Source: Betaproteobacteria bacterium
GTDB taxonomy: Bacteria > Pseudomonadota > Gammaproteobacteria > Burkholderiales > Casimicrobiaceae
DNA: 64,000 bases
Direction of reading: 5' to 3'
Assembly (NCBI GenBank): GCA_016861105.1
Contig: BOKS01000010.1
Coordinates: 1-64,000, forward strand
The notes under the pieces are model-generated. The model did no database searches and was not told the DNA's origin. It saw only the letters and a program-made list of their open reading frames with translations. The position numbers and the translations under genes are program-made. Below are positions 3,051-25,801 of this stretch, piece by piece. Every line of letters starts with the position of its first letter. The stretch's first letter is position 1.

Positions 3051-3106
3051 ATTCGGACCGAATAGCGACGTTTCACTGACGACGAGGGCAATGCGCGGCC
3101 GCTAAC
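3051..3106 (+). promoter_or_regulatory. composite promoter element A (dyad + CTGACGAC box + TAAC box)
   Basis: The perfect dyad ATTCGGACCGAAT (3051-3063) is followed by 12 bases ending in CGTTTCA. Then come CTGACG (3076-3081), a 19-base spacer and GCTAAC (3101-3106). The same layout recurs at five other places in the first 18 kb. Reading the two hexamers as -35 and -10 boxes, and the dyad as an activator site centred near -55, is inference. The element precedes the DUF900 hydrolase lipoprotein gene. Confidence 0.65.
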
Positions 3107-3251
3107 GTGGCGTCATCGAAGAAGCGCGGTCGCCGCGGCCCCGACGCCCGGCGCCGTCGGTGGGTTGCGCCGGCGCTTCTTCGCGGTTCGCGCCCACACC
3201 ACCATGACATCCCCCCGCATCGTTCCCCACCACGCCGAGGCCCGCTTGCAG

Positions 3252-4706
3252 ATGGACTCGCGGCCCCGCTGGCCGATGGAGCGCCCGCCCGCAGTGGCGG
3301 GGCCGCGCGCTCGCGAAGGGACGCCGCGCGTGCGTGGCACCCGCGGCGATCGCGGCAGCGGTGGCGCACCGGCGCCGCGGCCGGACCGCCACGCCACGGG
3401 TTGGCGGCGCTTCGCCGCGTCCGTCGCCATCGCGCTCGCCCTCGGCGGCTGCGCGACGACCCAAGAACTGATGCCGACGCCCGCGCTGTACACGGGTGCG
3501 GACGCCAGGATTCCCTTCCCGCGGACCTCCGTCCACGCGCCCCGGCCGACGCTCGACCTGCTGTTCATCACCGATCGCGCGCCGGCGCCATCGGGAAGCC
3601 GGGTCCCCTACACGGCCGCACGCTCGCGCTCCATGGCCTTCGGATCGTCGACGGTCGAGTTCGGCGACGGCATCGACTGGGATGCGCTGGTCAGCGAAAG
3701 CGTTGCGCCGCGGCGCGCCGGCGTCCTCCATGTCAAGCTCGGGTCGACGCGGGAACTCGGCCGTTTCCCGGCGATCCCCTACGAGCTCGACGTCGGTCCC
3801 GGCGGTGCTCATCGCGCGCCGCAGGTCGTCCAGGCGTTCGAGCGGACGAAGCGCGATCTGCAGGAGGAGATCGGCAAGCGCGTCGCCGCCGCGCCGCGCA
3901 AGGAGGTCGTGCTTTTCGTGCACGGCTTCCGCACGTCGTTCGAGGACGCCGCGCTGACGATGGGGCAGCTCTGCCACTTCCTCGGGCGCGAGTTCGTCTG
4001 CGCCATCTTCAGCTGGCCTGCCGGCGCACGGGGCGGGCTCCTGCTGGGCTACGACGCCGATCGCGAATCCGCGGAGTACGCGGTGGAGGACCTCGTCAAG
4101 GCGCTGCGGATGATCGGCGCGACGCCGGGCGTCCAGCAGGTTCACCTGGTCGCGCACAGCCGCGGCTCGGATACCGTCGCATCGGCGGTCTCCGCGCTCG
4201 GCGCGGAAGCGTACATGCGGCGTAGCTCGCCCGACCGGGAGTTCCGGCTCGGCAACATCGTGCTCGTCGCCCCCGATCTCGACGGCGACGTCGCAGTGAG
4301 CAAGATCTTCAAGGTGTTCTCCGATCCCGACCTGCCTTTCGGCGACCGCCCGGACGCCAACGCCCTGATCCCTCCCGCCCCCGGCCTGCGACTGACGCTG
4401 TACGCATCGCCGGACGACAAGGCGATCGCCACGGCAGGGTGGCTGTTCGGCAGCATCGCGCGGCTGGGCCGACTGGACGCGACGATGTTCACCGGCGACC
4501 AGATCGACGCGATCGGCAGCCTGCGTGCGATCGACATCATCGAGGTCCGGGGAACCACCGACCTCTTCGGGCACAGCTACCTCACTTCCAATCCGCGCGT
4601 GAGCGCCGACATCATCGCCTTGCTGCGGTACGGACTGCGACCGAACGATCCAGGCCGCCCCCTCGAGCGCATCGCCGGGTCGTTCTGGCGCCTGACCCGG
4701 CGCTGA
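3252..4706 (+). CDS. alpha/beta hydrolase (DUF900-type) lipoprotein
   Basis: The open frame extends up to 3165, but the likely lipoprotein signal (RRFAASVAIALALGGC) starts well inside it. The ATG at 3252 is chosen here; ATG 3276 or GTG 3330 are also possible. The mature part has an alpha/beta-hydrolase core: an oxyanion-loop VLFVHGFRTSFED and a nucleophile elbow VHLVAHSRGS. This matches the DUF900 family of unknown substrate. The protein is predicted to be anchored in the cell envelope. Composite promoter element A lies just upstream. The residues before the lipobox are Arg/Pro-rich and probably not translated. Confidence 0.75.
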   Translation: MDSRPRWPMERPPAVAGPRAREGTPRVRGTRGDRGSGGAPAPRPDRHATGWRRFAASVAIALALGGCATTQELMPTPALYTGADARIPFPRTSVHAPRPTLDLLFITDRAPAPSGSRVPYTAARSRSMAFGSSTVEFGDGIDWDALVSESVAPRRAGVLHVKLGSTRELGRFPAIPYELDVGPGGAHRAPQVVQAFERTKRDLQEEIGKRVAAAPRKEVVLFVHGFRTSFEDAALTMGQLCHFLGREFVCAIFSWPAGARGGLLLGYDADRESAEYAVEDLVKALRMIGATPGVQQVHLVAHSRGSDTVASAVSALGAEAYMRRSSPDREFRLGNIVLVAPDLDGDVAVSKIFKVFSDPDLPFGDRPDANALIPPAPGLRLTLYASPDDKAIATAGWLFGSIARLGRLDATMFTGDQIDAIGSLRAIDIIEVRGTTDLFGHSYLTSNPRVSADIIALLRYGLRPNDPGRPLERIAGSFWRLTRR

Positions 4707-5119
4707 TCCTGGCCGCCTTCGACGCGCTCGAGCGCCCGGGCCGCGCGCCCCGAAGGGAAATCGCCCGGAGGCCGGCAGGCCCTCTGGGCGCCCCCGACGG
4801 TGTCATCGAGGTGCCATCGAGAGGCTGTCATGAACGTCTCGCCGACGCTGCACGCGACCGCGGTCGTGCCACCCGCGCCACGGCAACGGGGCGCGGATGG
4901 CCCCTTTGTCGCATTTCTTCAGAAACTTGGATGACGGTCCGCCGCCCCGCCTCGCGCGTCGCGCGGCACGAGCGCTGGCGGCGGTCCACCCGCTGACGCC
5001 GATCTCTGGTGAAATAGCCTCCGGGGTCCACGCCGCGATGCCAGGTGCCCCGGCCGCGCGGTGCATCGGAGCAGGCGCGGGCCCGGCCTAATCGATCCGT
5101 CGTCGACCCCGAGGTCGCC
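4707..5119. other. intergenic region, nothing recognised
   Basis: These 413 bases separate the hydrolase gene from the winged-helix regulator. I see no conserved frame, no intrinsic terminator with a T-tract and no copy of the composite promoter element. A short imperfect tandem repeat (CATCGAG units near 4805-4823) is the only visible structure. Confidence 0.5.
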
Positions 5120-5488
5120 ATGGCAGACCCGCCTGCCGCCGGTCGCACCAGATTGGCACCCGATCCGGTGCGGGTCGACTTCGACCGCTTCGAGCTCGAC
5201 GAGGCCAATGCGCGCCTGCTCCGCGATGGCCGGCCCATCGCCCTGGCACCGACGCCCTTCGCCGTGCTCTGTGCGCTCGCGCGCCGGCCCGGTTCGCTGC
5301 TCACCAAGCAGGCGCTGCTCGACGAGGTCTGGGGCCACCAGTTCGTGAGCGAATCCGTCCTGAAGACGGTCATCAGCGAGCTGCGCACGACGCTCGACGA
5401 CGATGCCCGCAGCCCGCGCTTCATCGAGACCGTATCCCGGCGTGGCTATCGCTTCATTGCGGCGACGGCGGCTCCCGCCCTGCCGTAG
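5120..5488 (+). CDS. winged-helix (OmpR/CadC-type) DNA-binding domain, cut off by an in-frame TAG
   Basis: The 122-residue product is a Trans_reg_C winged helix. It contains the recognition region LLTKQALLDEVWGHQFVSESVLKTVISELR and the wing motif FIETVSRRGYRFIA. The ATG at 5120 is chosen because everything before it is Arg/Pro-rich. The frame ends with TAG at 5486-5488. Coding continues in the same frame without a gap into an ATPase domain, reading AEAPVSAAGAEQPGAFIGR and onward. Full-length relatives combine both parts in one protein of about 970 residues, so this looks like one regulator gene split by a nonsense codon. The domain alone could still bind DNA. Confidence 0.75.
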   Translation: MADPPAAGRTRLAPDPVRVDFDRFELDEANARLLRDGRPIALAPTPFAVLCALARRPGSLLTKQALLDEVWGHQFVSESVLKTVISELRTTLDDDARSPRFIETVSRRGYRFIAATAAPALP

Positions 5489-5614
5489 GCGGAGGCGCCG
5501 GTTTCCGCTGCGGGCGCGGAACAGCCGGGCGCGTTCATCGGACGCACGGATGCGCTCGCGCGGCTTCGCCGGGCCTGGGACGGGGCGCTCGCAGGGAAGC
5601 GTTGCGTCGTCTGG

Positions 5615-8035
5615 GTGGCCGGCGAGCCGGGGATCGGCAAGACCACGCTGATCGAGCACTTCGCCGCCAGGCTCGGCGACGTCCTGGTGGGCCGCGGCCA
5701 GTGCGTCGAGCACTTCGCCACCGGCGAGCCCTATCTTCCCGTCCTCGAAGCGCTGTCCGGGCTGTGCCGCAGCGATGCCACGCTGGTGCCGCTCCTGCGC
5801 GCGGTGGCGCCGACCTGGCTGCTGCAGCTGCCGTGGCTGTGCACGGCGCAGGAGCGGGACGCGCTGCGGCGCGAGCTCGCGGGCGTCAGCCCCGACCGCA
5901 TGCTGCGCGAGATGGGCGAGCTCCTCGACCGATCCGCGGAGCGCGCCCCGCTGCTGATGATCACCGAGGACCTGCACTGGAGCGATCGCGCGACGATCCA
6001 GCTCGTCGACTACGTGGCGCGCCGGCGCGGCGCGGGGCGCCTGATGTGGCTCGCCAGCTTCCGCCTCGCGGAAGTCGTCGCGCTCGATCATCCGCTCAAC
6101 GGCGTGCGGCACGAACTGCGCCTGCACCGTCTCGTCGAAGAGATCGTGCTCGACCCCTTCTCCGAGAAGGAGGTCGCCGACTACGTGACCGAGCGGCTGC
6201 CGGCGATGGCCGCGGACGAGGCATTCGTGCATGCGTTGCACGAGCGCACGGACGGATTGCCTCTGTTCGTGGCAACCCTTGTCGCCGAAGCCGCTTCGCG
6301 AGGCGCCCAGGGCGCGGACGCGGCGCTCAAGGGGCCGTCCGACGGCACGGCCGTGCCGGAGAGCCTCGCGCCCGTCATCGACCACTACATCGCGAAGCTC
6401 ACCGGAGAGCAGCGCTCGCTGCTGTCCGCGGCGGCCGTCTGCGGACAGGAGTTCCGCGTCACCACGCTCGCCGAGCAGCTCGGCTGGGACGTCGCGCGCG
6501 TCGGCGAGGCATGCGATCAGCTCGCGCGCGAGCAGTTCTGGCTGATCGCGCCGCGGGCGGAGCCACGCTTCGATGCGCCGGAACCGCCGTATGCGTTCAG
6601 GCACGCGCTGTTCCGCCGGATGATGTACGAGCGCACGCCCGCGCACGCCCGCGCCGACCTGCACCGCAAGGCCGCTGGAGCACTCGAGCGGGAGCGCTCC
6701 GCGGGGATGCCGGTGACGGCTGCTGAGCTCGCCGCGCACTTCGACCGCGGGCGCGAGCCGATGGCGGCGTTGCGCTACTACGCGGAGGCGACGGAGCAGG
6801 CGCTCGCGAACCTGGCGTACCACGAGTGCATCGCCGTCACCTCGCACGGACTGGACCTTCTCGCGCGGGTGGCGGACGGCGCCGAGCGCACCGCCGTGGA
6901 GATCTCCCTGCTCACGCTGCGGGGCATCGCGGCGATGCAGGTGCTCGGCATCGGGCCGGAGGCGAAGGCGGCGTTCCGTCGGGCGTACACGCTGCTCGCC
7001 GACGTCCCGCACCATCCGATGCGCCGGCGCCTGCTGTACGGCTACGGTTTCATCGCCAGCCTGAGCGGTGACTACGCGGAGGCGCTCGAGGTCGCCGACC
7101 GCGCCGAGGCGCTCGCGTCGGCCGCCGGGGATCCCACCCTGGTGCTCGCCGCCTGCATCGTCCATGGAGAAGTCGACCAGCTGCAGGTACGGCCGCGCGC
7201 CGCGATGACCTGGATCGAGCGGGGACTCGGCGTCGCCGAGCGGTTCGACACGATCGACGAGATCTTCATCGCCGACCCGCAGGTCACGCTTCTGGGACTG
7301 CTCGGCCTGCAGCACCTTCACGCCGGACGGGTCGACCTGGCCCACGAGGCGCTGCAGCGCGCGCGCACGAGGGCAGGCCACGTTCCGCAGCCGATGAACC
7401 GCCTCGTCGCGCTCTGGTTCGAGGCGCTTCTCGAGGTTCGACTCGGACGCCAGCACCGGGTCGCGGCGATCGCCGACGAAATGCGCACGCTCGTCGAGGC
7501 GTTCGGACTCGCGCACGGCCGCAACGGGTGGCGATGGTTCGCAGGTTGGGCCGACGCGCGCTCGGGTCGCCCGGCGGACGGCTACCGCCGGATCCGCGAG
7601 GCCTACGGCGAGAACACGCAGCTCGGGATGCTCGCGGGGGCCACCGAGGTGCTCGGATATGGCGCGGAGGCGGCGCTGCTCGCCGGCGATGCCGACGCGG
7701 CCGAGCGCGACCTTGCGGAAGCGCTGCATGCCGCAGACGCGCGCGGCGAACGCGTGTACCTGGTGCAGCTCCTCATGCTGGAAGGCGCGCTCGCCCGCGC
7801 GCGGGGGCACCCGACGGCGGCGGACGCGTCGCTGAGACGCGCAGCCGCGGAGGCCGTCGCGCAGGAGTCGCCGTGGCTCGAACTCGCGGCGTTGCTCGCG
7901 CTTTGCGAGCACGGGCGCGCCAAGGCGGACGAACGCAGCCGCCTGGCGACGCTCGTCGCGCAGCTTCCGCAGGCGCGTGACACCGACGCGCTCGCTCGCG
8001 CTCGCGCCGCACTCGACAGGAAGCACCGGACCTGA
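5615..8035 (+). CDS. AAA/NACHT-type ATPase and TPR-like part of the split winged-helix regulator
   Basis: This frame is in phase with the winged-helix gene and begins with an AAA_16-type module: Walker A GEPGIGKTT at the very start and Walker B-like LLMITEDLHWSD near residues 112-123. About 400 residues of helical, TPR-like C-terminal repeats follow, the architecture of large LuxR/SARP-like ATPase regulators. The only in-frame start after the TAG is GTG 5615, which would cut off the strand before Walker A. Separate translation would therefore give a damaged domain. It is best seen as the distal part of one gene, either a pseudogene or a readthrough product. It converges with the PerM-type gene 38 bases away. 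Confidence 0.7.
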   Translation: MAGEPGIGKTTLIEHFAARLGDVLVGRGQCVEHFATGEPYLPVLEALSGLCRSDATLVPLLRAVAPTWLLQLPWLCTAQERDALRRELAGVSPDRMLREMGELLDRSAERAPLLMITEDLHWSDRATIQLVDYVARRRGAGRLMWLASFRLAEVVALDHPLNGVRHELRLHRLVEEIVLDPFSEKEVADYVTERLPAMAADEAFVHALHERTDGLPLFVATLVAEAASRGAQGADAALKGPSDGTAVPESLAPVIDHYIAKLTGEQRSLLSAAAVCGQEFRVTTLAEQLGWDVARVGEACDQLAREQFWLIAPRAEPRFDAPEPPYAFRHALFRRMMYERTPAHARADLHRKAAGALERERSAGMPVTAAELAAHFDRGREPMAALRYYAEATEQALANLAYHECIAVTSHGLDLLARVADGAERTAVEISLLTLRGIAAMQVLGIGPEAKAAFRRAYTLLADVPHHPMRRRLLYGYGFIASLSGDYAEALEVADRAEALASAAGDPTLVLAACIVHGEVDQLQVRPRAAMTWIERGLGVAERFDTIDEIFIADPQVTLLGLLGLQHLHAGRVDLAHEALQRARTRAGHVPQPMNRLVALWFEALLEVRLGRQHRVAAIADEMRTLVEAFGLAHGRNGWRWFAGWADARSGRPADGYRRIREAYGENTQLGMLAGATEVLGYGAEAALLAGDADAAERDLAEALHAADARGERVYLVQLLMLEGALARARGHPTAADASLRRAAAEAVAQESPWLELAALLALCEHGRAKADERSRLATLVAQLPQARDTDALARARAALDRKHRT

Positions 8036-8073
8036 AGGGCGGCGCAGGGCCCGCAACAGGGCGGGGTGCCGCG

Positions 8074-9165
8074 TCAACGCCGTCCCGCGGGAGATCGGAC
8101 CAGCACCTGCGCTTCCACGCCTTCGGTGCGCGCGAGATCGCGGGCGCGCTGGTCCCAGAGCTCCCTCGCAAGCGTGAGCACGACCGGGCCCACGACGATC
8201 CCGACCAGGCCCAGAGCCTCGAAGCCGCCGAGACAGCCCATCAGCACCCACACGAACGGCAGGCGGGTGCCGTCGCGCGCGACCAGCGGACGCACGAGCT
8301 TGTCGCCGCAGAAGAGCACCGCGCAGCCGAGCGCGAACGCGAGAAACGCGGACGTGCCGGCCAGCGTCATCCACAATTGCAGCGCCAGCGCGGCGACCGC
8401 GACGTAGCCGACGAAGGGCACGAGCGAGAACGCGCCCGTGAGGGCGGCCCACACCCCGGCGTGCGGGACGCCGACGATCGCGTACGCCCCCCAGGCCGCG
8501 AAGCCGTTGAACAGCCCCACCACCAGCACGCTGTTCACCGATGCGCGCGCCGAGCGCGCCGCGACCGCGACGTAGGCTTCGGCACGCTCGCCCACCGAGC
8601 CGCGCAGGATCCGCCTGAAGTCCCGCGCCTGCGCGTCGCCCTCCTGGTACAGGAAGAACAGCATCAGGATCGCGAACACGATGATGAACAGGTGGCGCGC
8701 GACGAACTGCCCGACCGATTGGGCCCAGCCGAGCCAGGCGCTCGATTCCGCGCGCTCCGCCCACATGGACAGCGCTCCCGCGTGGGCGAGCTCGCGGTGC
8801 CACCGGCTCGACAGCCAGCGCCCCACGACCGGCAGCTCGTCCAGCCAGGCCGGCACGGGCACGCCCCTCGCGTCGGCGGACGCGAGCTCTGCCAGCATGG
8901 TGTGGGCTTCCGTCAGCAGGGCCGTGAAACCGAGCACCATCGGCGCCAGGACGAACACGGCCATCAGGCCGGTGAAGGCGAGCGCGGTCGCGTTGCGACC
9001 GAGCCATGGCGCCAGGAGGGACCGGAAGCGGACGAAGAGGGGCCAGCTGGCGACCGCGGCCACGCAGGCGGCGAGAATCGCCTGCACGAAGTCGTGCAGG
9101 ATCCACACCGCGAGCACGACGATCAGCGCGGCGTGGAACCATCGTCCGTTCAGCTTGATGTTCAT
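8074..9165 (-). CDS. AI-2E family (PerM/TqsA-type) transporter
   Basis: The 363-residue integral membrane protein has hydrophobic segments at the N-terminus (WFHAALIVVLAVWILHDFVQ), a paired block after residue 60 and a cluster in the C-terminal half. The latter includes GLFNGFAAWGAYAIVGVP and FSLVPFVGYVAVAALAL, typical of the AI-2E/PerM family. The family exports autoinducer-2 or acts as a cation/proton antiporter; the substrate is unknown here. The gene is transcribed on the minus strand. A reverse-oriented copy of the composite promoter element lies 100 bases upstream of its ATG, divergent from the copy serving the DUF3141 gene. Confidence 0.88.
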   Translation of the reverse strand: MNIKLNGRWFHAALIVVLAVWILHDFVQAILAACVAAVASWPLFVRFRSLLAPWLGRNATALAFTGLMAVFVLAPMVLGFTALLTEAHTMLAELASADARGVPVPAWLDELPVVGRWLSSRWHRELAHAGALSMWAERAESSAWLGWAQSVGQFVARHLFIIVFAILMLFFLYQEGDAQARDFRRILRGSVGERAEAYVAVAARSARASVNSVLVVGLFNGFAAWGAYAIVGVPHAGVWAALTGAFSLVPFVGYVAVAALALQLWMTLAGTSAFLAFALGCAVLFCGDKLVRPLVARDGTRLPFVWVLMGCLGGFEALGLVGIVVGPVVLTLARELWDQRARDLARTEGVEAQVLVRSPAGRR

Positions 9166-9264
9166 CGTGACCGCGCTTCCTGCGAGTGAGGGATGCCGGA
9201 TGCAAGCCGGCGCGCTCGCCGGCGCGGTAGTCGCCGCGCCAGCGACTCCGCCCAGTACCCCGAG

Positions 9265-9320
9265 CGTAGGGCGGCATCCGCCGTCCAGTCGTCAGCGATC
9301 CGTCGCGTTACGGTCCGATT
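9265..9320 (-). promoter_or_regulatory. composite promoter element F (minus strand)
   Basis: Read on the minus strand, AATCGGACCGTAA (9320-9308) is followed by 12 bases, CTGACG (9295-9290), a 19-base spacer and CCTACG (9270-9265). The CTGACGACT core is identical to that of the plus-strand copies. It faces the AI-2E family gene, whose ATG is at 9165, and lies back to back with element B. Confidence 0.6.
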
Positions 9321-9403
9321 GACCGGGCGGCGGCCGCACCGGTGCCCCTGCGCACGCGATCCGGCGGCACCGCCGTCCGCGCGCCGCGGTCCGGGGGTAC
9401 CGA

Positions 9404-9458
9404 AGGACCACCGAACGCGGACGTTTCCCTGACGACTCGCGGGGTTGCCCCCGATAAC
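9404..9458 (+). promoter_or_regulatory. composite promoter element B
   Basis: The degenerate dyad AGGACCACCGAAC (only the right half CCGAAC is kept) is followed by GCGGACGTTTCC, then CTGACG at 9429-9434, an 18-base spacer and GATAAC at 9453-9458. Spacing matches the other copies exactly. It serves the DUF3141-htrA-pagL unit. Confidence 0.65.
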
Positions 9459-9544
9459 GTGCGTTGCACCGGCCCGACACAGGTGCCGATCGCCTCGGCG
9501 CCATGCCGGCCGGAAGGCGCGACCAAGGGAGAAAGGAAGACGGG

Positions 9545-11977
9545 ATGGACAACGCAGGCACGCAGCTCGCGCTGAGCCACGAGCTGGCAGGAAAGGTCGC
9601 GCAGCTGCTGCAGACCCGCACGCAGGTCGCGCTGAAGCATTTCAACGAGCGGCTGCTGCACGCCGGCAAGGCACAGGTGGGCCAGTGGCTGGCGACGCCG
9701 CCGCTGCCCTACGAAGCGTGGGCGGGCAGCACGCGTTACGCCGTCGACGTCGCCGAGCGTTCCATCCTCTTCTGGGACACGCTGCGGCAGCGCGGCAACA
9801 ACTTCGTCGAGCACGAGCGCCGGGGGTTGCCGCCCGTGCTCCACTTCGAGCACGAAATGGTCGTGGACGGCCGCACGTTCGCGCGACCCGTCAACTACGC
9901 GCTGCTGCGCATCGTGCCGCCGAAGGGCGTGAGCGTCGATCCGCGGCGCCGTCCCTACGTGATCATCGACCCGCGCGGCGGGCACGGTCCGGGCATCGGC
10001 GGCTTCAAGGACGACTCGCAGGTCGGCGTCGCGCTGCGCGCGGGCCATCCGGTGTACTTCGTGATCTTCTTCCCGGAGCCGGAGCCCGGCCAGACGCTGC
10101 TCGACGTGTGCGACGCCGAGCGGCAGTTCGTGCACGAGGTGCGCGCGCTCCATCCGCAGGCGCCCAAGCCCGCGATCGTGGGCAATTGCCAGGCGGGCTG
10201 GGCCGCGATGATGCTCGCCGCCGCCAATCCCGAGGAGACCGGCCCGATCGTCGTCGTCGGTGCGCCGATGTCGTACTGGGGCGGCGCATGGCGCGAAGGC
10301 GAAGGCGACAACCCGATGCGCTACGCAGGCGGCCTCCTCGGTGGCAGCTGGCTTGCCTCGCTCGTCTCCGACCTCGGCGCGGGCCGATTCGACGGCGCGT
10401 GGCTGGTGCAGAACTTCGAGTACCTGAACCCGGCCAACACTTTCTGGGACAAGTACTACCGCGTCTTCGCGGACGTCGACACGGAGGCGTCGCGGTTCCT
10501 CGAGTTCGAGCGCTGGTGGGGCGGCTACTACCTGCTCAACCGCCAGGAGATCGAGTGGATCACGCAGAACCTCTTCGTCGGCAACAAGGCGTGGTCCGGC
10601 ACGGTCAGCGCGGGTGGCCACGGCGCGCTCGACCTGCGCCGGATCAAGGTTCCCATCGTGCTGTTCGCCTCGCTCGGCGACAACATCACGCCGCCGCAGC
10701 AGGCGTTCAACTGGGTGGCCGACGTCTACGGCAGCACCGAGGACATCAAGGCCAGCGGCCAGGTCATCGTCGGGCTCATGCACGAGGACGCCGGCCACCT
10801 CGGCATCTTCGTGTCCGGCAAGGTCGCGAAGAAGGAGCACGCGCAGATCGTGTCGGTGCTGAAGTCGATCGAGTCGCTCCCCCCCGGACTGTACGGCATG
10901 CGGATCGCCGAGCAGCGCGGGCGCGCCGGCGAGGCGGCCTACGACGTGACGCTGGCCGAGCTGCGCCTCGAGGACATCGTCGCGCGCCTCAACCGCTTCA
11001 GGCGCGCGGACGAGAAGGCCTTCGAGGCGGTGAACGCCGTTTCCGAGTTCAACCAGCGCGCGTACGAGCTCTTCGGGCGGCCGCTCGCCAAGGCGATGTC
11101 CAGCGAGTACGGCGCGCTGCTGTCCCGCGAGTTCCATCCGATGCGGTGGCAGCGCTGGGCGTTCTCCGACCTCAACCCGGCGGCGTGGTGGCTGGCGCCG
11201 GCGGCCGAGTGGGTGAAGGACCAGCGCCAGCCGCTCGACCCGGACGACCCCGCGCGGAAGGCGGAGTCGGCGATCTCGGAGGTCGTGAGCGCTTCGCTCG
11301 ACTGTCACCGGGCGCTGCGCGACGCGATCGCGGAGGCGACGTTCTTCCACATCTACGGCAACCTTCACGCGTTCTACCTGGGCGACGCCGCGCCTGCGCG
11401 CGTCGCCGTCCCGGCGGTGCAGAGCCCGCGCGAGCTCCCCGTGGTCAAGGAAGCGCTCGCGTCGATCGACAAGGGCGGCTATCCCGAAGCGCTCGCGCGC
11501 GTCGCCTTCCTCATGGCCCATCGCGACGAACCGCTGCCCCTGTCCCGGCTGCATCTCGCGCACGAGCTCATCGACGACTACCGGGAACTGCTTCCGGAGC
11601 TGCCGCTGGACGAGCTCCGCCGCATCGGCGGCGTCCAGGAGATCATCGCGCGCTACGAGCCGCAGAGGGCCGTGGCGACGCTCCCGACGCTCCTCGCGCG
11701 GCCGAGGGAGCGCGACCGGCTGCTCGTGCTGCTGGCGCGCGTGCTCGCCGACAAGCGGGTCCAGAAGGTCCGGCCGTCCGCGCGGCAGAAGGCGATGCTG
11801 GTGCGCATCCGCGCGACGCTGGCCGCGGCGCCGCTACGGTGGGCGGCACGCCGCGCGGAGGAAGACGAAGGCGGTCGGCCGGCACGACGGGCGCGTGCGC
11901 CTGCAACGAAGCCTGGCGCGGCGATGCGACGGGAAGCCGCTCGCGGATCGCGCGCCCGGGCGCGCGCCACGGGCTGA
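9545..11977 (+). CDS. DUF3141 domain protein (PHA-synthase-like alpha/beta fold)
   Basis: The 810-residue cytoplasmic protein matches the DUF3141 family. It includes YVIIDPRGGHGPGIGGFKDDSQVG and a nucleophile-elbow-like GNCQAGW, in which Cys215 stands where polyhydroxyalkanoate synthases have their catalytic Cys. A possible late catalytic region is VLFASLGDNITPP with LMHEDAGHLG. The family is known from low-oxygen or stress clusters of betaproteobacteria and has no defined reaction. The ATG at 9545 has an AGGAAG ribosome site. Its C-terminal 60 residues are Arg/Ala-rich. htrA and the pagL-like gene follow on the same strand. Confidence 0.85.
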   Translation: MDNAGTQLALSHELAGKVAQLLQTRTQVALKHFNERLLHAGKAQVGQWLATPPLPYEAWAGSTRYAVDVAERSILFWDTLRQRGNNFVEHERRGLPPVLHFEHEMVVDGRTFARPVNYALLRIVPPKGVSVDPRRRPYVIIDPRGGHGPGIGGFKDDSQVGVALRAGHPVYFVIFFPEPEPGQTLLDVCDAERQFVHEVRALHPQAPKPAIVGNCQAGWAAMMLAAANPEETGPIVVVGAPMSYWGGAWREGEGDNPMRYAGGLLGGSWLASLVSDLGAGRFDGAWLVQNFEYLNPANTFWDKYYRVFADVDTEASRFLEFERWWGGYYLLNRQEIEWITQNLFVGNKAWSGTVSAGGHGALDLRRIKVPIVLFASLGDNITPPQQAFNWVADVYGSTEDIKASGQVIVGLMHEDAGHLGIFVSGKVAKKEHAQIVSVLKSIESLPPGLYGMRIAEQRGRAGEAAYDVTLAELRLEDIVARLNRFRRADEKAFEAVNAVSEFNQRAYELFGRPLAKAMSSEYGALLSREFHPMRWQRWAFSDLNPAAWWLAPAAEWVKDQRQPLDPDDPARKAESAISEVVSASLDCHRALRDAIAEATFFHIYGNLHAFYLGDAAPARVAVPAVQSPRELPVVKEALASIDKGGYPEALARVAFLMAHRDEPLPLSRLHLAHELIDDYRELLPELPLDELRRIGGVQEIIARYEPQRAVATLPTLLARPRERDRLLVLLARVLADKRVQKVRPSARQKAMLVRIRATLAAAPLRWAARRAEEDEGGRPARRARAPATKPGAAMRREAARGSRARARATG

Positions 11978-12035
11978 GCATCGAGCGCCCCGCCGACGTT
12001 CTTCGCGGGTCCCACGACCGGAGGTGACGAACCCC

Positions 12036-13163
12036 ATGAACGGATCCTTGCGCCTTGCCGTCCAGTTGACGCTCGCCGCGGCGGCGGGCGGCCTGTTCGC
12101 GGTCGCGCTGCTCCATGGGCCGCCCGCACGCGACGCCGGCGCGCCGACGATCGCGGCGGCGGCCGCGACCGACTCGGCCACCGCCGCGCGCTCCGCGCCC
12201 GCCGTCGCCGCGGTGCCCGCTTCGCAGGCACCCTCGTCGAACGCGCCGCCCGCCAGCTACCGCGACGCCGTCGCGCACGCCGGCCCCTCCGTCGTGACGG
12301 TGCACTCGGCCCAGCTGCTGAAGCGACCCCTCCCGATCCCGTCGACCGTGCTCGTGAAGGGTCTCGGCTCGGGCGTGATCGTCGATCGCGACGGCTTCGT
12401 CGTCACCAATCACCACGTCGTCAAGGACGCCACCGAGCTCGCGGTCGCGCTGCCCGACGGCAGCCTGCATCTCGCCCGCATCGTCGGGGCCGACCCCGAG
12501 TCGGACATCTCCCTGCTCAGGATCGAGGCGCAGGGTCTGCGTCCGATCGAGTTCGCCGACGTCAACGACGTGGCCGTGGGAGACATCGCCCTCGCCGTGG
12601 GCAATCCGCTCGGCGTCGGCCAGACCGTCACCCAGGGCATCATCAGTGCGATCGTGCGCACGGGGTCGACACCGGTGGAGAACTTCATCCAGACCGACGC
12701 GGCGATCAATCCGGGCAACTCCGGCGGCGCCCTCGTCGACACCACGGGCCGGCTGGTCGGCATCAATACCGCGATCCTGTCGCACAGCGGCGGATCGGAG
12801 GGCATCGGCTTCGCCATCCCGGGCGATCTGGTCCGGGCCGTGGCCGCGACGCTGCGCGCCAAGGGCCGGGTGGCGCGGGCGTGGATCGGGTTGCACACGG
12901 CCGCTGCGCCGCAACCCCCGGGGGCGCTCGTGGTCGCGGTGGACCCCGAGGGCCCTGCCCACCGTGCCGGCATCGTCGCCGGCGACGTGATCCTCCGCAT
13001 CGGCGCCAGGAACGTCTTGCATCCGCAAGATGCGCGCGCGGTCCTGCTCGACACCGAGCCGGGCGCCGACGTGCGCGTCGTCATCGTGAGGAATGGTGAG
13101 CACACGACGGTGAACGTGCAAGCCGGCCCGGTCCCGGTCCAGCGGGCCTCCGGTGGTCGCTGA
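12036..13163 (+). CDS. HtrA/DegP-family periplasmic serine protease (S1C) with one PDZ domain
   Basis: The 375-residue protein starts at ATG 12036 after a strong GGAGGTGA site. It has an N-terminal hydrophobic anchor or signal (about residues 5-26), an Ala/Pro-rich linker and the trypsin-like domain with catalytic His127 (TNHHVV), Asp157 (PESDIS) and Ser229 (NPGNSGG). A single PDZ domain follows (about 280-365, SEGIGFAIP then the GAL-VV-DPEGPAHRAGI region). One PDZ plus an N-terminal anchor is DegS/HhoB-like. It probably degrades or senses misfolded envelope proteins. It lies in the unit that begins with DUF3141. Confidence 0.88.
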   Translation: MNGSLRLAVQLTLAAAAGGLFAVALLHGPPARDAGAPTIAAAAATDSATAARSAPAVAAVPASQAPSSNAPPASYRDAVAHAGPSVVTVHSAQLLKRPLPIPSTVLVKGLGSGVIVDRDGFVVTNHHVVKDATELAVALPDGSLHLARIVGADPESDISLLRIEAQGLRPIEFADVNDVAVGDIALAVGNPLGVGQTVTQGIISAIVRTGSTPVENFIQTDAAINPGNSGGALVDTTGRLVGINTAILSHSGGSEGIGFAIPGDLVRAVAATLRAKGRVARAWIGLHTAAAPQPPGALVVAVDPEGPAHRAGIVAGDVILRIGARNVLHPQDARAVLLDTEPGADVRVVIVRNGEHTTVNVQAGPVPVQRASGGR

Positions 13164-13206
13164 GCGACCGGTGGTGTCCCGGGATCCGCGCGGCCCGGTG
13201 CCGGGC

Positions 13207-14178
13207 ATGGACCCTGTCCCTCGCGCCCGGGATCGCCGCGTGACGGCGCGGCGCTGGGCAGCACCCCTTCAACGGACCGCGGTCGCGCTGATGCTCGCGC
13301 TCGCCGCGGCGACCGCCCAGGCAGAGCTCCGCGTCGCCGCCCAGTTCGGGCGCGAGGTGGGCGACGACATCGACAGCGCCGGGATCGGCCTGTCGTTCCC
13401 GACCGGCCTCGGCGGCGAGTTCCAGTCGGCCGCCTGGGATGCGACGCTGAACGTCGACGTCGTCCGCTGGAGCGCCGACGCTCGCGAGGGTTCGCGCCGG
13501 CACGTTCTCGACGTCGGGCTGACGCCGCAGCTGCGCCTGCGATGGCCCCGCGACGCCTTCGTCGAGCCCTTCGTGGACCTGGGCGTCGGCCTCCACCTCC
13601 TCAGCGCGCACGACCTCGGCGACCGCCACCCGGGAACGGTCGTCCAGTTCGGCGAGTACGTCGGGCTGGGTGTGCGGTTTGGCGAGCGCCGGGAGTGGGC
13701 GGTCGGCCTGCGGCTCCTTCACGAGTCCAACGCGAGCTTCGACGGGGAGAACGGCGGGCTCACCACCGTGGGACTGCGCCTCGAGTACGCCCGCGCTAGC
13801 GTCCCGAGCCGGAGGTCCATCGAAGAGGGCATCGATGTGAGCGGGCCGTGGGCCCCTTCGCGACGACCACGGGGCAATGCGCGGAGCGCGAAGCGGACGG
13901 CGCGAGCCATCGCGTCGCCTGCTCGCCCCGCCGAACTCCGACCGAATGCCGACGATTCCGGAACGACTGGTGCGCACGACTGGACTAGCCTCGTCCATGA
14001 GGACTCCTCGCTTGCGATGGGTGCGAGGCACGCCGCCATGACACCGCCACCCACCCGTCCCGCGCCGACCGACGGCGGCCTCGACGCGCAGTCGTCCCGG
14101 AGCGCGGGCCGCGTGACGGGCGAGGCAATGCGGACGTCGGAACGGGCCGGGCCGGGGCGGAGGGAGCGCCCAGGATGA
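13207..14178 (+). CDS. PagL-like lipid A 3-O-deacylase with an anomalous C-terminal extension
   Basis: A signal peptide (LQRTAVALMLALAAATAQA) is followed by an outer-membrane beta-barrel of about 150 residues. This carries the PagL catalytic signature LLHESNASFDGENGG, with His and Ser two residues apart and a downstream Glu. PagL removes the 3-O acyl chain of lipid A. Family members end soon after a final strand like LRLEYAR. Here the frame runs on for about 125 low-complexity, Arg/Ala-rich residues and overlaps the next gene by four bases. A small indel near 13793 would place TAG right after YAR. The start is uncertain: ATG 13207 or GTG 13240. Confidence 0.75.
   Translation: MDPVPRARDRRVTARRWAAPLQRTAVALMLALAAATAQAELRVAAQFGREVGDDIDSAGIGLSFPTGLGGEFQSAAWDATLNVDVVRWSADAREGSRRHVLDVGLTPQLRLRWPRDAFVEPFVDLGVGLHLLSAHDLGDRHPGTVVQFGEYVGLGVRFGERREWAVGLRLLHESNASFDGENGGLTTVGLRLEYARASVPSRRSIEEGIDVSGPWAPSRRPRGNARSAKRTARAIASPARPAELRPNADDSGTTGAHDWTSLVHEDSSLAMGARHAAMTPPPTRPAPTDGGLDAQSSRSAGRVTGEAMRTSERAGPGRRERPG
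13935..13989 (+). promoter_or_regulatory. composite promoter element E (degenerate copy)
   Basis: ACTCCGACCGAAT (13935-13947) is followed by GCCGACGATTCC, GGAACG in place of CTGACG (13960-13965), ACT, and then ACTAGC at 13984-13989 after an 18-base spacer. Every spacing matches the family, but the -35-like box has drifted. It lies inside the extended PagL-like frame, which argues that the extension is not real coding sequence. Confidence 0.45.
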
Positions 14179-14528
14179 GCGCACGGCCGGCCATCGCGAA
14201 GCGCCTCCTCCCGCACGGCGCGCGCCAACGTCCGCGTACGCGCCGCCGCGAGGCGCCAGCGACCACGTCGCCCGCGGCGACGGCGGGGTCCGCGCGCGCG
14301 CGCACCCCGCGCACGAGCGCGAGGCGGAGGACGTTCACGGCGGTCGGGGCTCGCGCGCCGGCGTGCGCCGTGCCGGACGCCAGTGTCTGGCTCGAGTGCA
14401 GCGGCGAGCTGATCGACCTCCGCTCCGTCCAGGTTCTCGGCATTCGCCTGGCGCGGCCCGGCATCGAGGTCGTGGTGTTCGGCTGTCCCCGCTGCGGGAA
14501 GCCGCACTCGTCGCTTCGCTTCGCATGA
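14175..14528 (+). CDS. small protein with a C-terminal CPxCG zinc-ribbon-like motif, function unknown
   Basis: The 117-residue frame has an Arg/Ala-rich first half that may not be translated. The more protein-like C-terminal half has ordinary composition (VWLECSGELIDLRSVQVLGIRLARPGIEVVVFG) and ends in CPRCGKPHSSLRFA, a single CxxC pair plus an upstream Cys. This could bind a metal or mediate redox contact. ATG 14175 overlaps the preceding stop; an internal start is equally possible. A degenerate composite promoter copy lies about 190 bases upstream and a better copy 24 bases downstream of the stop. I do not recognise the family. Confidence 0.5.
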   Translation: MSARPAIAKRLLPHGARQRPRTRRREAPATTSPAATAGSARARTPRTSARRRTFTAVGARAPACAVPDASVWLECSGELIDLRSVQVLGIRLARPGIEVVVFGCPRCGKPHSSLRFA

Positions 14529-14551
14529 CGCGGATCCGGCCGCAGCCGTCA

Positions 14552-14606
14552 AGTCGGACGGAATGCGAACGTTTCGCTGACGACGCGCCGGAACGCCACC
14601 TCTAAC
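14552..14606 (+). promoter_or_regulatory. composite promoter element C
   Basis: AGTCGGACGGAAT (14552-14564), GCGAACGTTTCG, CTGACG (14577-14582), an 18-base spacer, TCTAAC (14601-14606). This copy is closest to the consensus. The GTG start of the MaoC-phosphotransacetylase gene is 71 bases downstream. Confidence 0.65.
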
Positions 14607-14677
14607 CTCCGATCGACGGATCAGCCGACCCCGCGCTCGCACGCGGCGCCCCGTCGTCCATCGATCCAAGGACCACC

Positions 14678-16186
14678 GTGACCAGCACCTTCTCCTCCAA
14701 CGACCTCCAGGTCCTGCGCAACCGGACGTTCGACGAGATCGCGGTCGGCGACCGGGCGAGCATCGAGCGCACGCTGACGGCGGCCGACATCCAGCTCTTC
14801 GCCGCGATGTCCGGCGACATCAATCCGCAGCACATCGACGCCGAGTTCGCGGCGTCGACGCGGTTCCAGGGCGTGATCGCGCACGGAATGTGGGGTGCGG
14901 CCCTCATCTCCGCCGTGCTCGGCACGCGCCTCCCCGGGCCGGGAACGATCTACATCGGGCAGACGCTGGAGTTCCACGCGCCGGTGCGGGTCGGGGACAC
15001 ACTCACCGTCGACGTGACGGTGCTGTCGCGGGACGAGGCGAAGCATCGGCTCGTGCTGGAGTGTCGCTGCACCAACCAGGACGGCAAGGTCGTGATCCGC
15101 GGAGAGGCGAGCGTTCTGGCGCCGACCGAGCGGATCGAGCGTCCGCGCGGCACGCTGCCGCAGGTCCGCATCGCCCTCGCGCATGGCGACGACCTCGTCC
15201 GCCTGATCCAGTACGTGCAGCCGCTCGGGCGGATCCGCATGGCCGTCGCCCACCCCTGCGATGCCGTCAGCCTGTCGGCCGCGCTCGACGCGCGAGCGGC
15301 CGGCCTCATCGAGCCCGTCCTGGTCGGGCCGCGCGAGCGGCTGGATGCCGTCGCCCGGCAAGCGAATCTGAGCATCGCCGGGCTCGAGATCGAGGACGTG
15401 CCGCACAGCCATGCCGCGGCAGCGCGTGCGGTCGAGCTCGCCGTGAAGGGCGGTGTCGACGCCCTGATGAAGGGCAGCCTGCACACCGACGAGCTGATGG
15501 GCGCGGTGGTCGCGAGCCCCTTGCGCACCGGCCGCCGCATGAGCCACTGCTTCGTCATGCAGACGCCGGCCTACCCGCGTCCGTTCATCATCACCGATGC
15601 CGCGGTCAACATCGCCCCGACGCTTCCCGCCAAGGCGGACATCGTGCGCAATGCGATCGACCTCGCGCACGCCTTCGGCGTCGCCCGGCCGCGCGTCGCG
15701 ATCCTCGCGGCGGTCGAGACCGTCAACCCGGACATGCCCGCCACGCTGGATGCCGCGGCGCTGTGCAAGATGGCGGACCGCGGCCAGATCGAGGGCGCGG
15801 TCGTCGACGGGCCGCTCGCGTTCGACAACGCGGTGTCGGCCGCCGCGGCACGCACCAAGGGCATCGTGTCCAGCGTCGCCGGCGCGGCGGACATCCTGGT
15901 CGTGCCCGACCTCGAGAGCGGGAACATGCTCGCCAAGCAGCTCGAGTACCTCGGCGGCGCGGCCAGCGCCGGTATCGTCCTCGGGGCGCGCGTGCCCATC
16001 GTGCTCACCAGCCGTGCCGACTCGCGCGAGGCGCGGATCGCGTCGTGCGCCGTGGCGCTCGTCGCCGCGCGGCGGCTCGGACCGCGCGCCGGCGCGGGCG
16101 TCGAGGCGTCCTCCGGGCCGGGGGGCCTCGCCCCCGCCGCGATCGTGAACCCGCCGGCCCCGGCGACGCCGGAGCTGCAGCCGTGA
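14678..16186 (+). CDS. bifunctional MaoC-type enoyl-CoA hydratase / phosphate acetyl(butyryl)transferase
   Basis: The 502-residue protein joins two domains. Residues about 10-150 form a MaoC hot-dog fold (INPQHIDAEFA and FQGVIAHGMWGAALIS carry the hydratase Asp/His region). Residues about 170-480 form a PTA/PTB acyltransferase (VDALMKGSLHTDELMGAVV, FIITDAAVNIAP). The fusion hydrates enoyl-CoA and exchanges acyl-CoA with acyl-phosphate. A GTG start is used at 14678. Such genes normally precede an acetate kinase, and here the kinase frame starts inside this stop codon but is truncated. Element C upstream is the likely promoter. Confidence 0.88.
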   Translation: MTSTFSSNDLQVLRNRTFDEIAVGDRASIERTLTAADIQLFAAMSGDINPQHIDAEFAASTRFQGVIAHGMWGAALISAVLGTRLPGPGTIYIGQTLEFHAPVRVGDTLTVDVTVLSRDEAKHRLVLECRCTNQDGKVVIRGEASVLAPTERIERPRGTLPQVRIALAHGDDLVRLIQYVQPLGRIRMAVAHPCDAVSLSAALDARAAGLIEPVLVGPRERLDAVARQANLSIAGLEIEDVPHSHAAAARAVELAVKGGVDALMKGSLHTDELMGAVVASPLRTGRRMSHCFVMQTPAYPRPFIITDAAVNIAPTLPAKADIVRNAIDLAHAFGVARPRVAILAAVETVNPDMPATLDAAALCKMADRGQIEGAVVDGPLAFDNAVSAAAARTKGIVSSVAGAADILVVPDLESGNMLAKQLEYLGGAASAGIVLGARVPIVLTSRADSREARIASCAVALVAARRLGPRAGAGVEASSGPGGLAPAAIVNPPAPATPELQP

Positions 16187-16350
16187 GTGCGCCGCTCCTC
16201 GTCCTCGACGCCGGTTCGTCGAGCATCAAGTTCGCGCTGTGCGATGGGGACGGGGCGCCTCTGCCGCGCCCGCCGGTAGGGTCGGGCCGGGTCGAGGGCA
16301 TCGGCCGCAACGCGACGCTCGTGGACGACACGGCGAACGCCACGACCTGA
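16183..16350 (+). pseudogene. ackA: truncated acetate kinase (N-terminal 55 residues only)
   Basis: A GTG overlapping the stop of the phosphotransacetylase gene opens a 55-residue frame that begins PLLVLDAGSSSIKFAL, the phosphate-1 motif of acetate/butyrate kinases. About 400 residues are expected, but the frame ends at TGA 16348-16350 after DDTANATT. The downstream DNA shows no further kinase motifs in any frame. The ATP-binding and acetate-binding parts are therefore missing, probably through an internal deletion. Overlapping start and stop codons show that it was once translated together with the transferase. Confidence 0.8.
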
Positions 16351-16371
16351 AGCAGGCCCGAGGACGCCAGG

Positions 16372-16593
16372 ATGCCCTTCAACGCCGAATCCAAGTACCC
16401 CAACCGCCGCGCCTACGTGCTGAAGGTGCGCAGCGACGCCAGTCCCGACGCGCTGGTCGGCCGGCTCGAGAACCTGGTCACCGGCCGGCAGCGCGAGTTC
16501 GCATCGGGCCACGAGCTGCTCGATTCCCTCGTGAGGGACCTCGAACGCCAGGAAACGCCGCCGCCTCCGGACGGTGCGGGGGACGGGAAGTGA
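16372..16593 (+). CDS. small protein of unknown function
   Basis: This 73-residue frame starts at ATG 16372 with GAGGACGCCAGG just upstream. It has balanced composition in its first 55 residues (KYPNRRAYVLKVRSDASPDALVGRLENLVTG) and a Pro/Gly-rich tail. A helical segment, LLDSLVRDLERQ, lies near the C-terminus. It follows the truncated acetate kinase by 21 bases and is probably in the same transcript. No family is recognised. Confidence 0.55.
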   Translation: MPFNAESKYPNRRAYVLKVRSDASPDALVGRLENLVTGRQREFASGHELLDSLVRDLERQETPPPPDGAGDGK

Positions 16594-16740
16594 AGCGCCT
16601 TCGCCGGGGGCGCGGTCGCGTTCGTCCCTCGGGCCGGTCGCGCGCGGCCAGACACCCCGCAACGCGTCTTGCGACGCGTCGAATCGCGAAAGGAGCGACC
16701 CCGACCTCCCCCTGGGAGACCTCGCGGGCGCCATCCATCC

Positions 16741-17076
16741 ATGACCGATCGTCCCGATCAGCTGCAGATCGCCTGGTGGGCGAGCAACCTCGGGGAGCTC
16801 GACCGCGAGATCGCCCGACTGGCCTTGCTGTGCCGCATCCGGATCCTCGATCCCGGCGTGCTCGAGCGGGCACTGCAAAGGGACGAATCGGTGTGCGGCA
16901 CGCAGAACCCGATCGCCTTCGCCAAGCTGCACGACCTGCTCCTGATGCACTACGCGATCCAGAAGCGGGCGGCGAAGGCCGTCGGGGCCGTGCAAGCCGC
17001 GCAGATCGAGGACCACGTGATCGACGCGCTGCGGAAGCGCTTCGCCGCGCAGATCGAGGACCTGCCGCGGTCGTGA
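16741..17076 (+). CDS. small helical protein of unknown function
   Basis: The frame is open from 16669, but ATG 16741 is chosen because the upstream residues are only Arg/Pro. A GAAAGGAGCGACC stretch lies farther upstream. The 111-residue product is mostly helical and charged (LGELDREIARLALLCRIRILDPGVLERALQ), with two Cys and no signal peptide or membrane segment. It may belong to the transferase unit, 147 bases after the previous gene. I do not recognise it. Confidence 0.55.
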   Translation: MTDRPDQLQIAWWASNLGELDREIARLALLCRIRILDPGVLERALQRDESVCGTQNPIAFAKLHDLLLMHYAIQKRAAKAVGAVQAAQIEDHVIDALRKRFAAQIEDLPRS

Positions 17077-17290
17077 GGCGCGGCGGCGACGCCGCGGTCG
17101 CCGCCCCCTCCGCGCGATGCGCATCGGCGGTCACGGCGACGCGGCCGTGATTCCGCCCGCCCCCTTCGCATCCTGAACCGGAGCGCTGCGGGGATTGCGC
17201 CCGACCCTCCTTCGCGCGCGGACGCTCGTGGTCCTTCGCAGCGTCCGCCCTCGATCCGGCGTCCGCGCGGATGCCGAAAAGGCTCACCGA

Positions 17291-17345
17291 ATCCTGACGG
17301 AACACCAACGCTTCACTGACGACTCGACCCGGAGCTTCTTCTACG
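17291..17345 (+). promoter_or_regulatory. composite promoter element D
   Basis: ATCCTGACGGAAC (17291-17303), ACCAACGCTTCA, CTGACG (17316-17321), an 18-base spacer, TCTACG (17340-17345). It lies upstream of the three-gene RND efflux operon. The rest of 17077-17463 holds no recognisable gene or terminator. Confidence 0.6.
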
Positions 17346-17463
17346 CTCACGCCATACCGATCCCCCGCGCTGCCGACCGATGCCGCACGACTGCCCCTTC
17401 CCTTCGATCTTCGCGTTCCACCGTCAGGATCGAGGGGCCTGCGACGCGCGGTCTCGTCGACCG

Positions 17464-19005: not shown

Positions 19006-19038
19006 AACCGAGGCACCTCATCGACGCGAGGAACTTTC

Positions 19039-23100: not shown

Positions 23101-23273
23101 GCGTGTTCTGGGGGCCGATGGCCATCGCGATGATCGGCGGTCTCGCCTCGGCGACGGTGCTGACGATCTTCTTCGTGCCCGCGCTCTACGCCGCGTGGTT
23201 CCGGCTGCGGCGCGTCCCCGAGCCGGACGCGGCGCAGGAGCGGGAACCGGAAGGCCTCCCGGCAGGCGCGTGA
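20172..23273 (+). CDS. RND-family efflux permease (AcrB/MexB-like)
   Basis: The 1033-residue length is typical of AcrB-type pumps. The first membrane helix (VVLFLILAIAIGGAYSFTKLGQLEDPSF) is followed by a large periplasmic loop. A helix block around residues 340-490 includes LIIALGLLVDDGIIAVEMM, the proton-relay region with adjacent Asp residues in helix 4. A second loop and a C-terminal helix block with LGIIALSGMIMRNSVILVDQI follow. It exports drugs or other amphiphiles using the proton gradient. Substrate specificity cannot be read from sequence. It is the third gene of the tripartite operon. Confidence 0.93.
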   Translation: MKSFNLTEWALDHRPVVLFLILAIAIGGAYSFTKLGQLEDPSFSVPSMTAVVVWPGATAQQVQDELLNRMEKKFEQLDNFDKVRTYARQGYGGMTITVKGGTSKADQLEAWYQARKKFSDIRLELPEGVIGPIFNDEYSDVTGLLYAVKGDGVGMGELADAAEDIKRRLLKVPMVKKVDIYGRQAKKVYVEFSHQRLAALGITPFQIAESLRNQNSVLAAGSIDTRSDRVMVRVSGQFDSLDDIRNVPIAAGGRLVKLGDFTTVTRGYEDPPLYTVRHNGQQVLMIGITMTGDGNIIDLGKALERAVAGVQAEMPYGVELERVADQPTVVSESIWEFERSLLEAVAIVLAVSLISLGFRTGIVVGLAVPIVLGVVAMVMLAAGWNLERVSLGSLIIALGLLVDDGIIAVEMMVVKMEEGWDRLKAAAYSYSATAMPRLTGALITTAAFMPIGFAKSTTGEYAGGIFWIVGTAVLFSWVVSGLITPYLAVRMLPKDFGKHRHGSDPYQTPFYRRLRRWIDVAVERRWLVIGATVAALAGSIFASRIVPQQFFPSSSRPELVVELRLKEGASFAATTEQVKSMEALFARDDDVRFFTAYTGAGQPRFYLSLDPELPNPGYAVFIVMTKDIEARERVRSRLLANVNEQFPQAWVRVTRLELGPPVGFPVQFRVVGPDTQKVREIAREVEAAVASSPKVRDVQLDWNDPVRTLRVDLDQDKARALGLAPADVALVTQTVMNGATMSHLREHEDLIDIVARAVPSERLDVDTLKDVNLYTRQGTVVPLSQVARVRYELEEPVLWRRNRDMAITVRADVKDGEQGVTATQEILPHLADIEAKLPYGYRIDVGGAVEESAKANRALAAVAPVMLLTILTLLMLQLKSFSLMTMVLLTAPLGLIGVVAGLLLFQAPLGFVAILGIIALSGMIMRNSVILVDQIRIEREGGLDPWNAVLEAAVRRTRPVVLTAAATGLAMIPLTHSVFWGPMAIAMIGGLASATVLTIFFVPALYAAWFRLRRVPEPDAAQEREPEGLPAGA

Positions 23274-25781: not shown

Positions 25782-25801
25782 GTTCATATTGGGAGGTGAA
25801 C

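Follow-up and report, generated by a model that had tools for sequence, protein, structure and literature searches.

The window considered here is a stretch of 64,000 nucleotides from a Betaproteobacteria bacterium (assembly GCA_016861105.1, contig BOKS01000010.1). It contains a gene cluster in which six copies of a composite promoter-like element, A to F, occur together with the reading frame of a candidate regulator at 5045..8035 (plus strand), located between the DUF900 and AI-2E genes. Six copies with these positions and strands had been claimed in a first-pass annotation of this DNA, and all of them are present. Element A (3055..3108, plus strand; repeat units 3055-3087, a 15-bp spacer, -10 sequence TAACGT at 3103-3108) faces the gene of a DUF900 alpha/beta hydrolase (3165..4706, plus) and, further on, the regulator gene. 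Element F, the only one on the minus strand (9263..9316; units 9316-9284, 15-bp spacer, TACGCT at 9268-9263), faces the gene of an AI-2E family transporter (8074..9165, minus). Element B (9408..9460, plus; units 9408-9440, 14-bp spacer, TAACGT at 9455-9460) faces the DUF3141-htrA-pagL genes, that is, a DUF3141 protein (9464..11977, plus; the start codon of this frame is provisional), an HtrA-like trypsin-PDZ protease (11895..13163, plus) and a PagL lipid A 3-O-deacylase domain protein (13153..14178, plus). Element C (13939..13991, plus; units 13939-13971, 14-bp spacer, TAGCCT at 13986-13991) has a degenerate third repeat, with GGAACGAC in place of CTGACGAC, and faces a 117-residue open reading frame (ORF; 14175..14528, plus), the CPxCG protein of the first-pass annotation, which has no Pfam or NCBIfam match. 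Element D (14556..14608, plus; units 14556-14588, 14-bp spacer, TAACCT at 14603-14608) faces maoC-pta, encoding a MaoC-PTA fusion protein (14678..16186, plus). Element E (17295..17347, plus; units 17295-17327, 14-bp spacer, TACGCT at 17342-17347), which has a fourth unit upstream, TCACCGAATCC, faces the OEP-MFP-RND genes for an outer membrane factor, a membrane fusion protein and an RND permease (17380..23273, plus). Five of the copies lie between listed reading frames; element C (the copy at 13935) lies inside the frame 13153-14178, in its 3' extension beyond the PagL domain (residues 106-212).

Each copy, when left out of a 33-bp matrix trained on the other five, ranked sixth or better among all window positions on both strands. 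With the full 33-bp matrix the six copies score 39.7-52.3 bits, the next position 15.3 bits and the one after it 8.1 bits, the runner-up being the 17291 copy (element E) in an 11-bp-shifted register; in 30 random windows (Markov-1, same composition) the top score was 16.5 bits, obtained with the six-copy matrix shifted by 4 bp. Sequence models were used for the genome of origin (4.49 Mb in 28 contigs, 85% complete), because a pattern search with up to 3 mismatches, which found one site there, was too strict. A model of 55 positions (R1) returned the six copies at E 1.3e-11 to 5.8e-9, and match no. 7 among the 30 matches listed stood at E 0.03; the later model R2 added two weak matches, E 0.035 and 0.049. 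Since the R1 scan gave no strong copies elsewhere, the regulon is local to 3.0-17.4 kb of the window, at the start of contig C10. The genome scan that the first-pass annotation had suggested thus agrees with its description of a local, promoter-like composite element, which in this genome is strictly local.

The anatomy of the element was recognized because sites from relatives could be added to the window copies. Its core consists of three, sometimes four, 11-bp direct repeats, [cGACCGAAnnn][CGACntTTCgC][TGACGACTnnn], the last of which overlaps the -35 region and is followed after 14 bp (rarely 15) by a -10 element TAnnnT; an optional first unit upstream, [nnaCCgAAnnn], is weak and not always present. 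In an alignment of 33 sites the self-match at lag 11 amounts to 0.48, to be compared with a mean of 0.26 and a maximum of 0.305 in 1000 shuffles and with 0.17-0.29 at the other lags from 5 to 16, and the A of GAC is invariant in each of the three strong units (33/33 sites). Left out of this set were L164:7884, L161:1261 and L163:9060 (no -10 at 14 bp), L163:6187 and L159:15229 (off register) and L052:9835 (weak, spacing 17), which was omitted from alignment A2 as well. The 13-base dyad formerly described as the leading part of the element is lost as a general feature: its left half, ATTCG, keeps the A only (25 of 33 sites), the next four letters being found in 15, 11, 16 and 7 of 33. The dyad reading was therefore rejected from the 33 sites; it stems from individual copies where the last letters of the upstream unit are, by coincidence, a mirror image of GACCGAA.

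As to the TCTAAC-like hexamer of the first-pass annotation, a -10 box does lie there, but its conserved form is TAnnnT, with the first T two bases into the hexamer. A matrix made from the cores of the six window copies, with the -10 left out, returned 29 matches above 12 bits, coming from ten loci of six other genomes, and TAnnnT, which occupies 0.0009 of positions in these ten loci, follows the third unit at exactly 14 bp in 24 of them. The first T, the A and the final T are the most conserved positions of sigma-70 -10 elements, and the same 24 of 29 matches, found without -10 information, carry all three. A formal probability of this spacing is not to be taken literally, because the loci were originally found with models including the -10 and homologous promoters are not independent. 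Across the 33 sites the spacing is 14 in 30 and 15 in 2, with no -10 in 1; this count is not independent either, because the sites were chosen by a score that included the -10, and 24 of 29 is the better figure.

Between orthologous promoters the mean pairwise identity of the repeats is 0.76 (four DUF3141 promoters), 0.71 (six RND promoters) and 0.67 (one AI-2E pair), whereas that of the flanks is 0.25-0.30, near chance (0.35-0.36 for the AI-2E pair), and that of the 14-bp spacer 0.36-0.46 overall (0.45-0.46 for DUF3141 and RND). Since the repeats were kept while flanks and spacer diverged, the comparison points to selection on the element, and not to recent shared ancestry, as the probable cause of its conservation.

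The element recurs in six other genomes, mostly ahead of the same kinds of genes; the earlier suggestion that matches in relatives should precede orthologues of the window genes was mostly borne out. The early model R1 gave weak matches only on 40 relatives, at E 0.006 or worse outside the genome of origin. With the window DUF3141 protein as query, 48 loci were fetched from named genomes, and the eight best matches of the window-trained matrix fall in three of them, from Rivibacter subsaxonicus (L051), a Ramlibacter metagenome-assembled genome (MAG; L052) and the Betaproteobacteria MAG BroJett031 (L050). The other 45 loci contain no motif (best 14.1 bits) and no regulator; the regulator is not encoded in 46 of the 48 loci, L050 included, many of them being short contigs. 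The genome of L050 does hold a 62% regulator orthologue on the same contig, 3.5 kb past the nearest site. DUF3141 and pta reportedly occur in the low-oxygen-activated (lxa) locus of Burkholderia as well. A link to this locus was set aside: no operator for lxa was found in the literature searched, and the 45 other DUF3141 loci are without motif or regulator.

Sites precede DUF3141 in the window and in genomes G041, G042 and G043; an RND efflux operon (outer membrane or fusion gene) in the window, G041, G042, G043, G182 and G057; the AI-2E permease in the window, G042 and G057 (26 bits in G057, with TAnnnT at 21 instead of 14); PhaC in G041 and G057; a CoA-transferase pair in G042; and LpxR in G041 and G042. 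Further targets in G041 are acetate kinase, MgtC and an enoyl-reductase-maoC-pta unit, and a few sites face frames without Pfam match, e.g. L051:7484, L163:13438 and L159:19013. Like PagL in the window, LpxR in the relatives is a lipid A deacylase, so that different proteins may serve one role here. At L159:15306 (G182), strong repeats are followed by CATCAT in place of TAnnnT, and 0.3 kb downstream in the same direction the AI-2E permease is represented only by a match of 44 residues from its C-terminal part; for both reasons gene and promoter may be decayed here.

No winged-helix regulator had been named in the first-pass annotation, although one is encoded within the cluster. The candidate frame holds an OmpR-type winged helix (Trans_reg_C) in 5045-5488 and an AAA_16 ATPase with TPR in 5615-8035, and over 5144-8014 it is 62% identical to an uninterrupted protein of 965 residues from Rivibacter (L051:4462-7359). 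In this homologue Pfam places Trans_reg_C (65 bits) at residues 31-106; AAA_16 (83.7 bits) begins near residue 134, and the TPR_MalT and TPR_12 matches stay below cut-offs. The Ramlibacter regulator is full-length too. The window frame is interrupted by an in-frame TAG at 5486-5488, in the linker between winged helix and ATPase, which may be real, polymorphic or an assembly error; the full-length orthologues in G041, G042, G043 and G182 (62% form) have no stop, and the 48% paralogues of G182 and G366 have one TGA inside the match. A stretch VWGH[QR][FH]VS[ED]SVLKT[AVT]IS[DEA]LR, which by analogy with PhoB we take to be the recognition helix, is kept in 8/8 motif-linked regulators, that of the window among them; the seven distant homologues that were aligned read otherwise here, e.g. 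VTEGAITACLRDLR and VEEGQVKQFVSELR. NCBIfam matches are to the OmpR-type domain only (CadC and HilA, 47.4 bits versus curated cut-offs of 400 and 589), and a search of plasmid records gave three relatives with 30-36% identity, annotated as 'HilA' or 'AAA family ATPase'. No description of this operator or of the regulator protein was found in the literature searched, which is no proof of absence from print.

Regulator and motif were then compared across genomes. Each of the four genomes of the motif model has exactly one full-length regulator, on the contig of the sites (G042 holds the query, the other three are 62% identical); other proteins of these genomes match in part, at 28-40% for the winged-helix part and 26-28% for the ATPase-TPR part. 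In G041, G042 and G182 the strong sites occupy a stretch of only 12-21 kb, on the contig that carries the regulator. Among 399 genomes of the order, seven hold the regulator at E 1e-60 or better: four hold a close form at 48-70% identity, namely G000, G057 (70%, cut by a contig end), G182 (62%, plus the 48% paralogue) and G366 (48%), and the other three hold distant homologues of 36-38%. R2, the motif model, derives from the window and three named genomes; run on the same kind of draw of 399 genomes, it finds the motif at E <1e-5 only in G000, G057, G182 and G366, which are the same four. G057, G182 and G366 lie outside the training set, and the probability of the co-occurrence is about 1e-7, with the threshold set after the list had been seen. 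At E 0.01, 18 of the 399 genomes give an R2 match; the three genomes with distant homologues are without a match at E 0.05. Of 369 genomes drawn from the class, five besides the genome of origin have distant homologues (29-39%), and outside the genome of origin there is no motif better than E 1.1e-4; the match at this value, in G556, covers model positions 3-43 only and lies far from that genome's distant homologue. In none of 21 congeners is there a close regulator or a motif better than E 0.001; one of them holds an ATPase homologue of 27% identity. Regulator and motif are thus present or absent together, a pattern that fits a cluster acquired by horizontal transfer.

The 48% paralogues of G182 and G366 have one site each, about 160 bp downstream of their own gene, and this site precedes an efflux-type operon different from that of the window cluster (27-29% identity). 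At these two sites, L166:7602 on contig C157 of G182 and L165:10626 on contig C108 of G366, the repeat sequence is slightly different. The 48% paralogue together with its site is a possible second specificity class.

In our judgement each of the six copies is, with good probability, the operator-promoter of a cluster-specific activator encoded at 5045-8035, a reading drawn from comparative sequence analysis. The activator would occupy three or four direct repeats of 11 bp, its protomers arranged head to tail and each a helical turn from the next. If -12 is assigned to the first T of TAnnnT, the units would extend from -59 to -49, from -48 to -38 and from -37 to -27; the last unit would thus stand where a -35 element is normally contacted by sigma region 4. 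The bound array would then bring a sigma-70-type RNA polymerase to an otherwise poor promoter of rigid spacing, and the ATPase-TPR part presumably senses a signal, with ATP or a ligand as the putative switch, and controls assembly. From the list of targets one may guess at envelope and overflow-carbon stress as this signal. The activator near -55 on a weak -35 of the first-pass annotation is retained in so far as an activator would sit over a weak -35; its 13-base dyad at -55 plus a separate -35 gives way to the tandem 11-bp array.

Several observations weigh against the assignment of the sites to this activator. Because of the TAG, an intact protein may be absent from the window genome, though all six sites are conserved. 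TAnnnT is missing at 14 bp in 5 of the 29 matches, of which L159:15306, L164:7884 and L163:9060 have none, L161:1261 has it at 21, and L163:6187, off register, at 25. Weak motif matches at E 0.01 or better occur in 14 of 395 order genomes without close regulator, the best being G065 at 4.3e-5, and 5 of 21 congeners have a motif at E 0.001-0.009. The distant homologues in the three motif-free order genomes are cut by contig ends or matched in part, and in G361 the winged helix was not seen. In the large scans scoring was limited to the top candidates of each genome, 2 for the protein and 12-14 for the motif, and weak matches were lost. Finally, the cluster could be inherited as a block, such that regulator and sites would co-occur without contact between them. 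The partial site in G065 was itself rejected, as it has no -10.

Spacing of direct repeats by one helical turn is typical of OmpR-type domains in general, and the motif genomes each hold several other winged-helix-part matches with 28-40% identity, so the sites might be operators of another DNA-binding protein, e.g. an OmpR/PhoB-family response regulator encoded elsewhere, with the winged-helix ATPase merely a neighbour. This is rather unlikely in view of the motif following the close regulator across the 399 genomes, the confinement of strong sites to 12-21 kb on its contig in G041, G042 and G182, the single site beside each paralogue of G182 and G366, and the recognition helix, which is conserved in motif-linked proteins only. 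The first-pass annotation had also considered an alternative sigma factor, which would read CTGACG as -35 and the TCTAAC-like box as -10 and to which the very rigid spacing between the boxes would be suited. The conserved part, however, extends over 33 bp with a period of 11 bp, a pattern for which a -35/-10 pair does not account; the -10 keeps T, A and T only, as in sigma-70 promoters; and CTGACG is separated from TAnnnT by 20 bp, longer than the usual promoter spacer of 17 bp. No sigma factor is among the 20 window proteins scanned against Pfam, a scan that did not cover the whole genome. Because of the periodicity, the sigma-70-like TAnnnT and the co-occurring winged-helix regulator, such a sigma factor is disfavoured and must be regarded as very improbable. 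A dispersed repeat or mobile-element remnant without regulatory role, as might be supposed from several copies in one cluster and from congeners without a strong copy, is hardly credible at all: the window copies differ among themselves while key positions are conserved across genera, identity between the flanks of orthologous copies is close to chance, every copy in the window is directed at a gene start and has a fixed -10, and there is no strong copy elsewhere in the genome of origin.

An activator encoded at 5045-8035, the preferred reading, would work like PhoB or the large SARP AfsR while being a member of neither family. AfsR of Streptomyces is built from an OmpR-type domain, BTA, NOD and TPR; it forms a side-by-side dimer engaging sigma region 4, and a poor -35 is overlapped by its 22-bp box, which spans -40 to -19 and is made of two repeats of 11 bp (PMC10936776). 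The regulator shares with AfsR the N-terminal OmpR-type winged helix and the C-terminal P-loop NTPase with TPR (the NOD assignment being by family match), as well as 11-bp direct repeats over a poor -35 with a poor -10, and the proposed mode of activation is the same. Unlike AfsR, it gives no BTA match (Pfam, E 0.1, three homologues). Its sites have three to four repeats, from about -59 to -27, where AfsR has two, from -40 to -19, and its close forms were found in genomes of the Burkholderiales type, where they neighbour genes for efflux, polyester/acetate metabolism and lipid A. The last unit ends 14 bp from the -10, whereas in large SARP sites the 3' repeat ends 8 bp from the -10, with an 11- or 22-bp period (PMC10936776).

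With PhoB/OmpR response regulators the candidate has in common a winged helix of the same Pfam family and a direct-repeat operator over the -35, its position relative to the start being a deduced one; it differs in having no receiver family (Pfam, E 0.1) and an input part of ATPase and TPR. The repeat sequence also differs from the pho box. PhoB is modelled structurally as binding direct repeats over the -35 region with tandem symmetry (PMC3348028), and activation of the PhoB type is described as strict in its spacing to the core promoter (PMC10294691). A P-loop ATPase with a MalT-like TPR region (Pfam match below cut-off) also recalls the MalT/LAL proteins; on the other hand, the winged helix is N-terminal here and there is no match to a C-terminal LuxR-type helix-turn-helix (Pfam, E 0.1). 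It is this C-terminal domain by which MalT/LAL proteins are defined. CadC and HilA likewise have an N-terminal OmpR-type winged helix outside two-component systems, but the regulator scores far below their curated cut-offs.

A kind of protein otherwise named by its parts only is now paired, as a candidate, with an operator, a promoter geometry and a list of targets. Under what may be one switch, the unassigned DUF3141 and DUF900 proteins and a likewise unassigned 135-residue ORF (16669-17076) come together with acetate/polyester genes, RND efflux and lipid A deacylases, which hints at a common role. The regulon being closed and local, it would also be an example of a regulator able to move with its sites as a unit. 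More tentatively, and with chances somewhat short of even, one may imagine proteobacterial STAND-like ATPase activators as AfsR analogues without BTA, acting as head-to-tail arrays of three or four protomers over the -35, and the present case as a mobile cassette of regulator plus operators by which a whole cluster of polyester/acetate, lipid A and efflux genes is tied into one local, closed regulon.

Some smaller features of the cluster may be added. After maoC-pta, a 54-residue frame at 16186-16350 has an acetate-kinase-like start (Pfam E 0.011, below cut-off) and ends early; with the acetate kinase of the G041 cluster (L162:2195-3445) as query, no further match was found in the window. The 135-residue ORF has no Pfam or NCBIfam match; its counterparts in the clusters of G041, G042, G043, G057 and, in part, G182 are 42-60% identical. 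A few kb past the RND genes, at 25796-26656, lies the gene of a DDE-type transposase-like protein (DDE_Tnp_IS240, 29.3 bits, cut-off 27).

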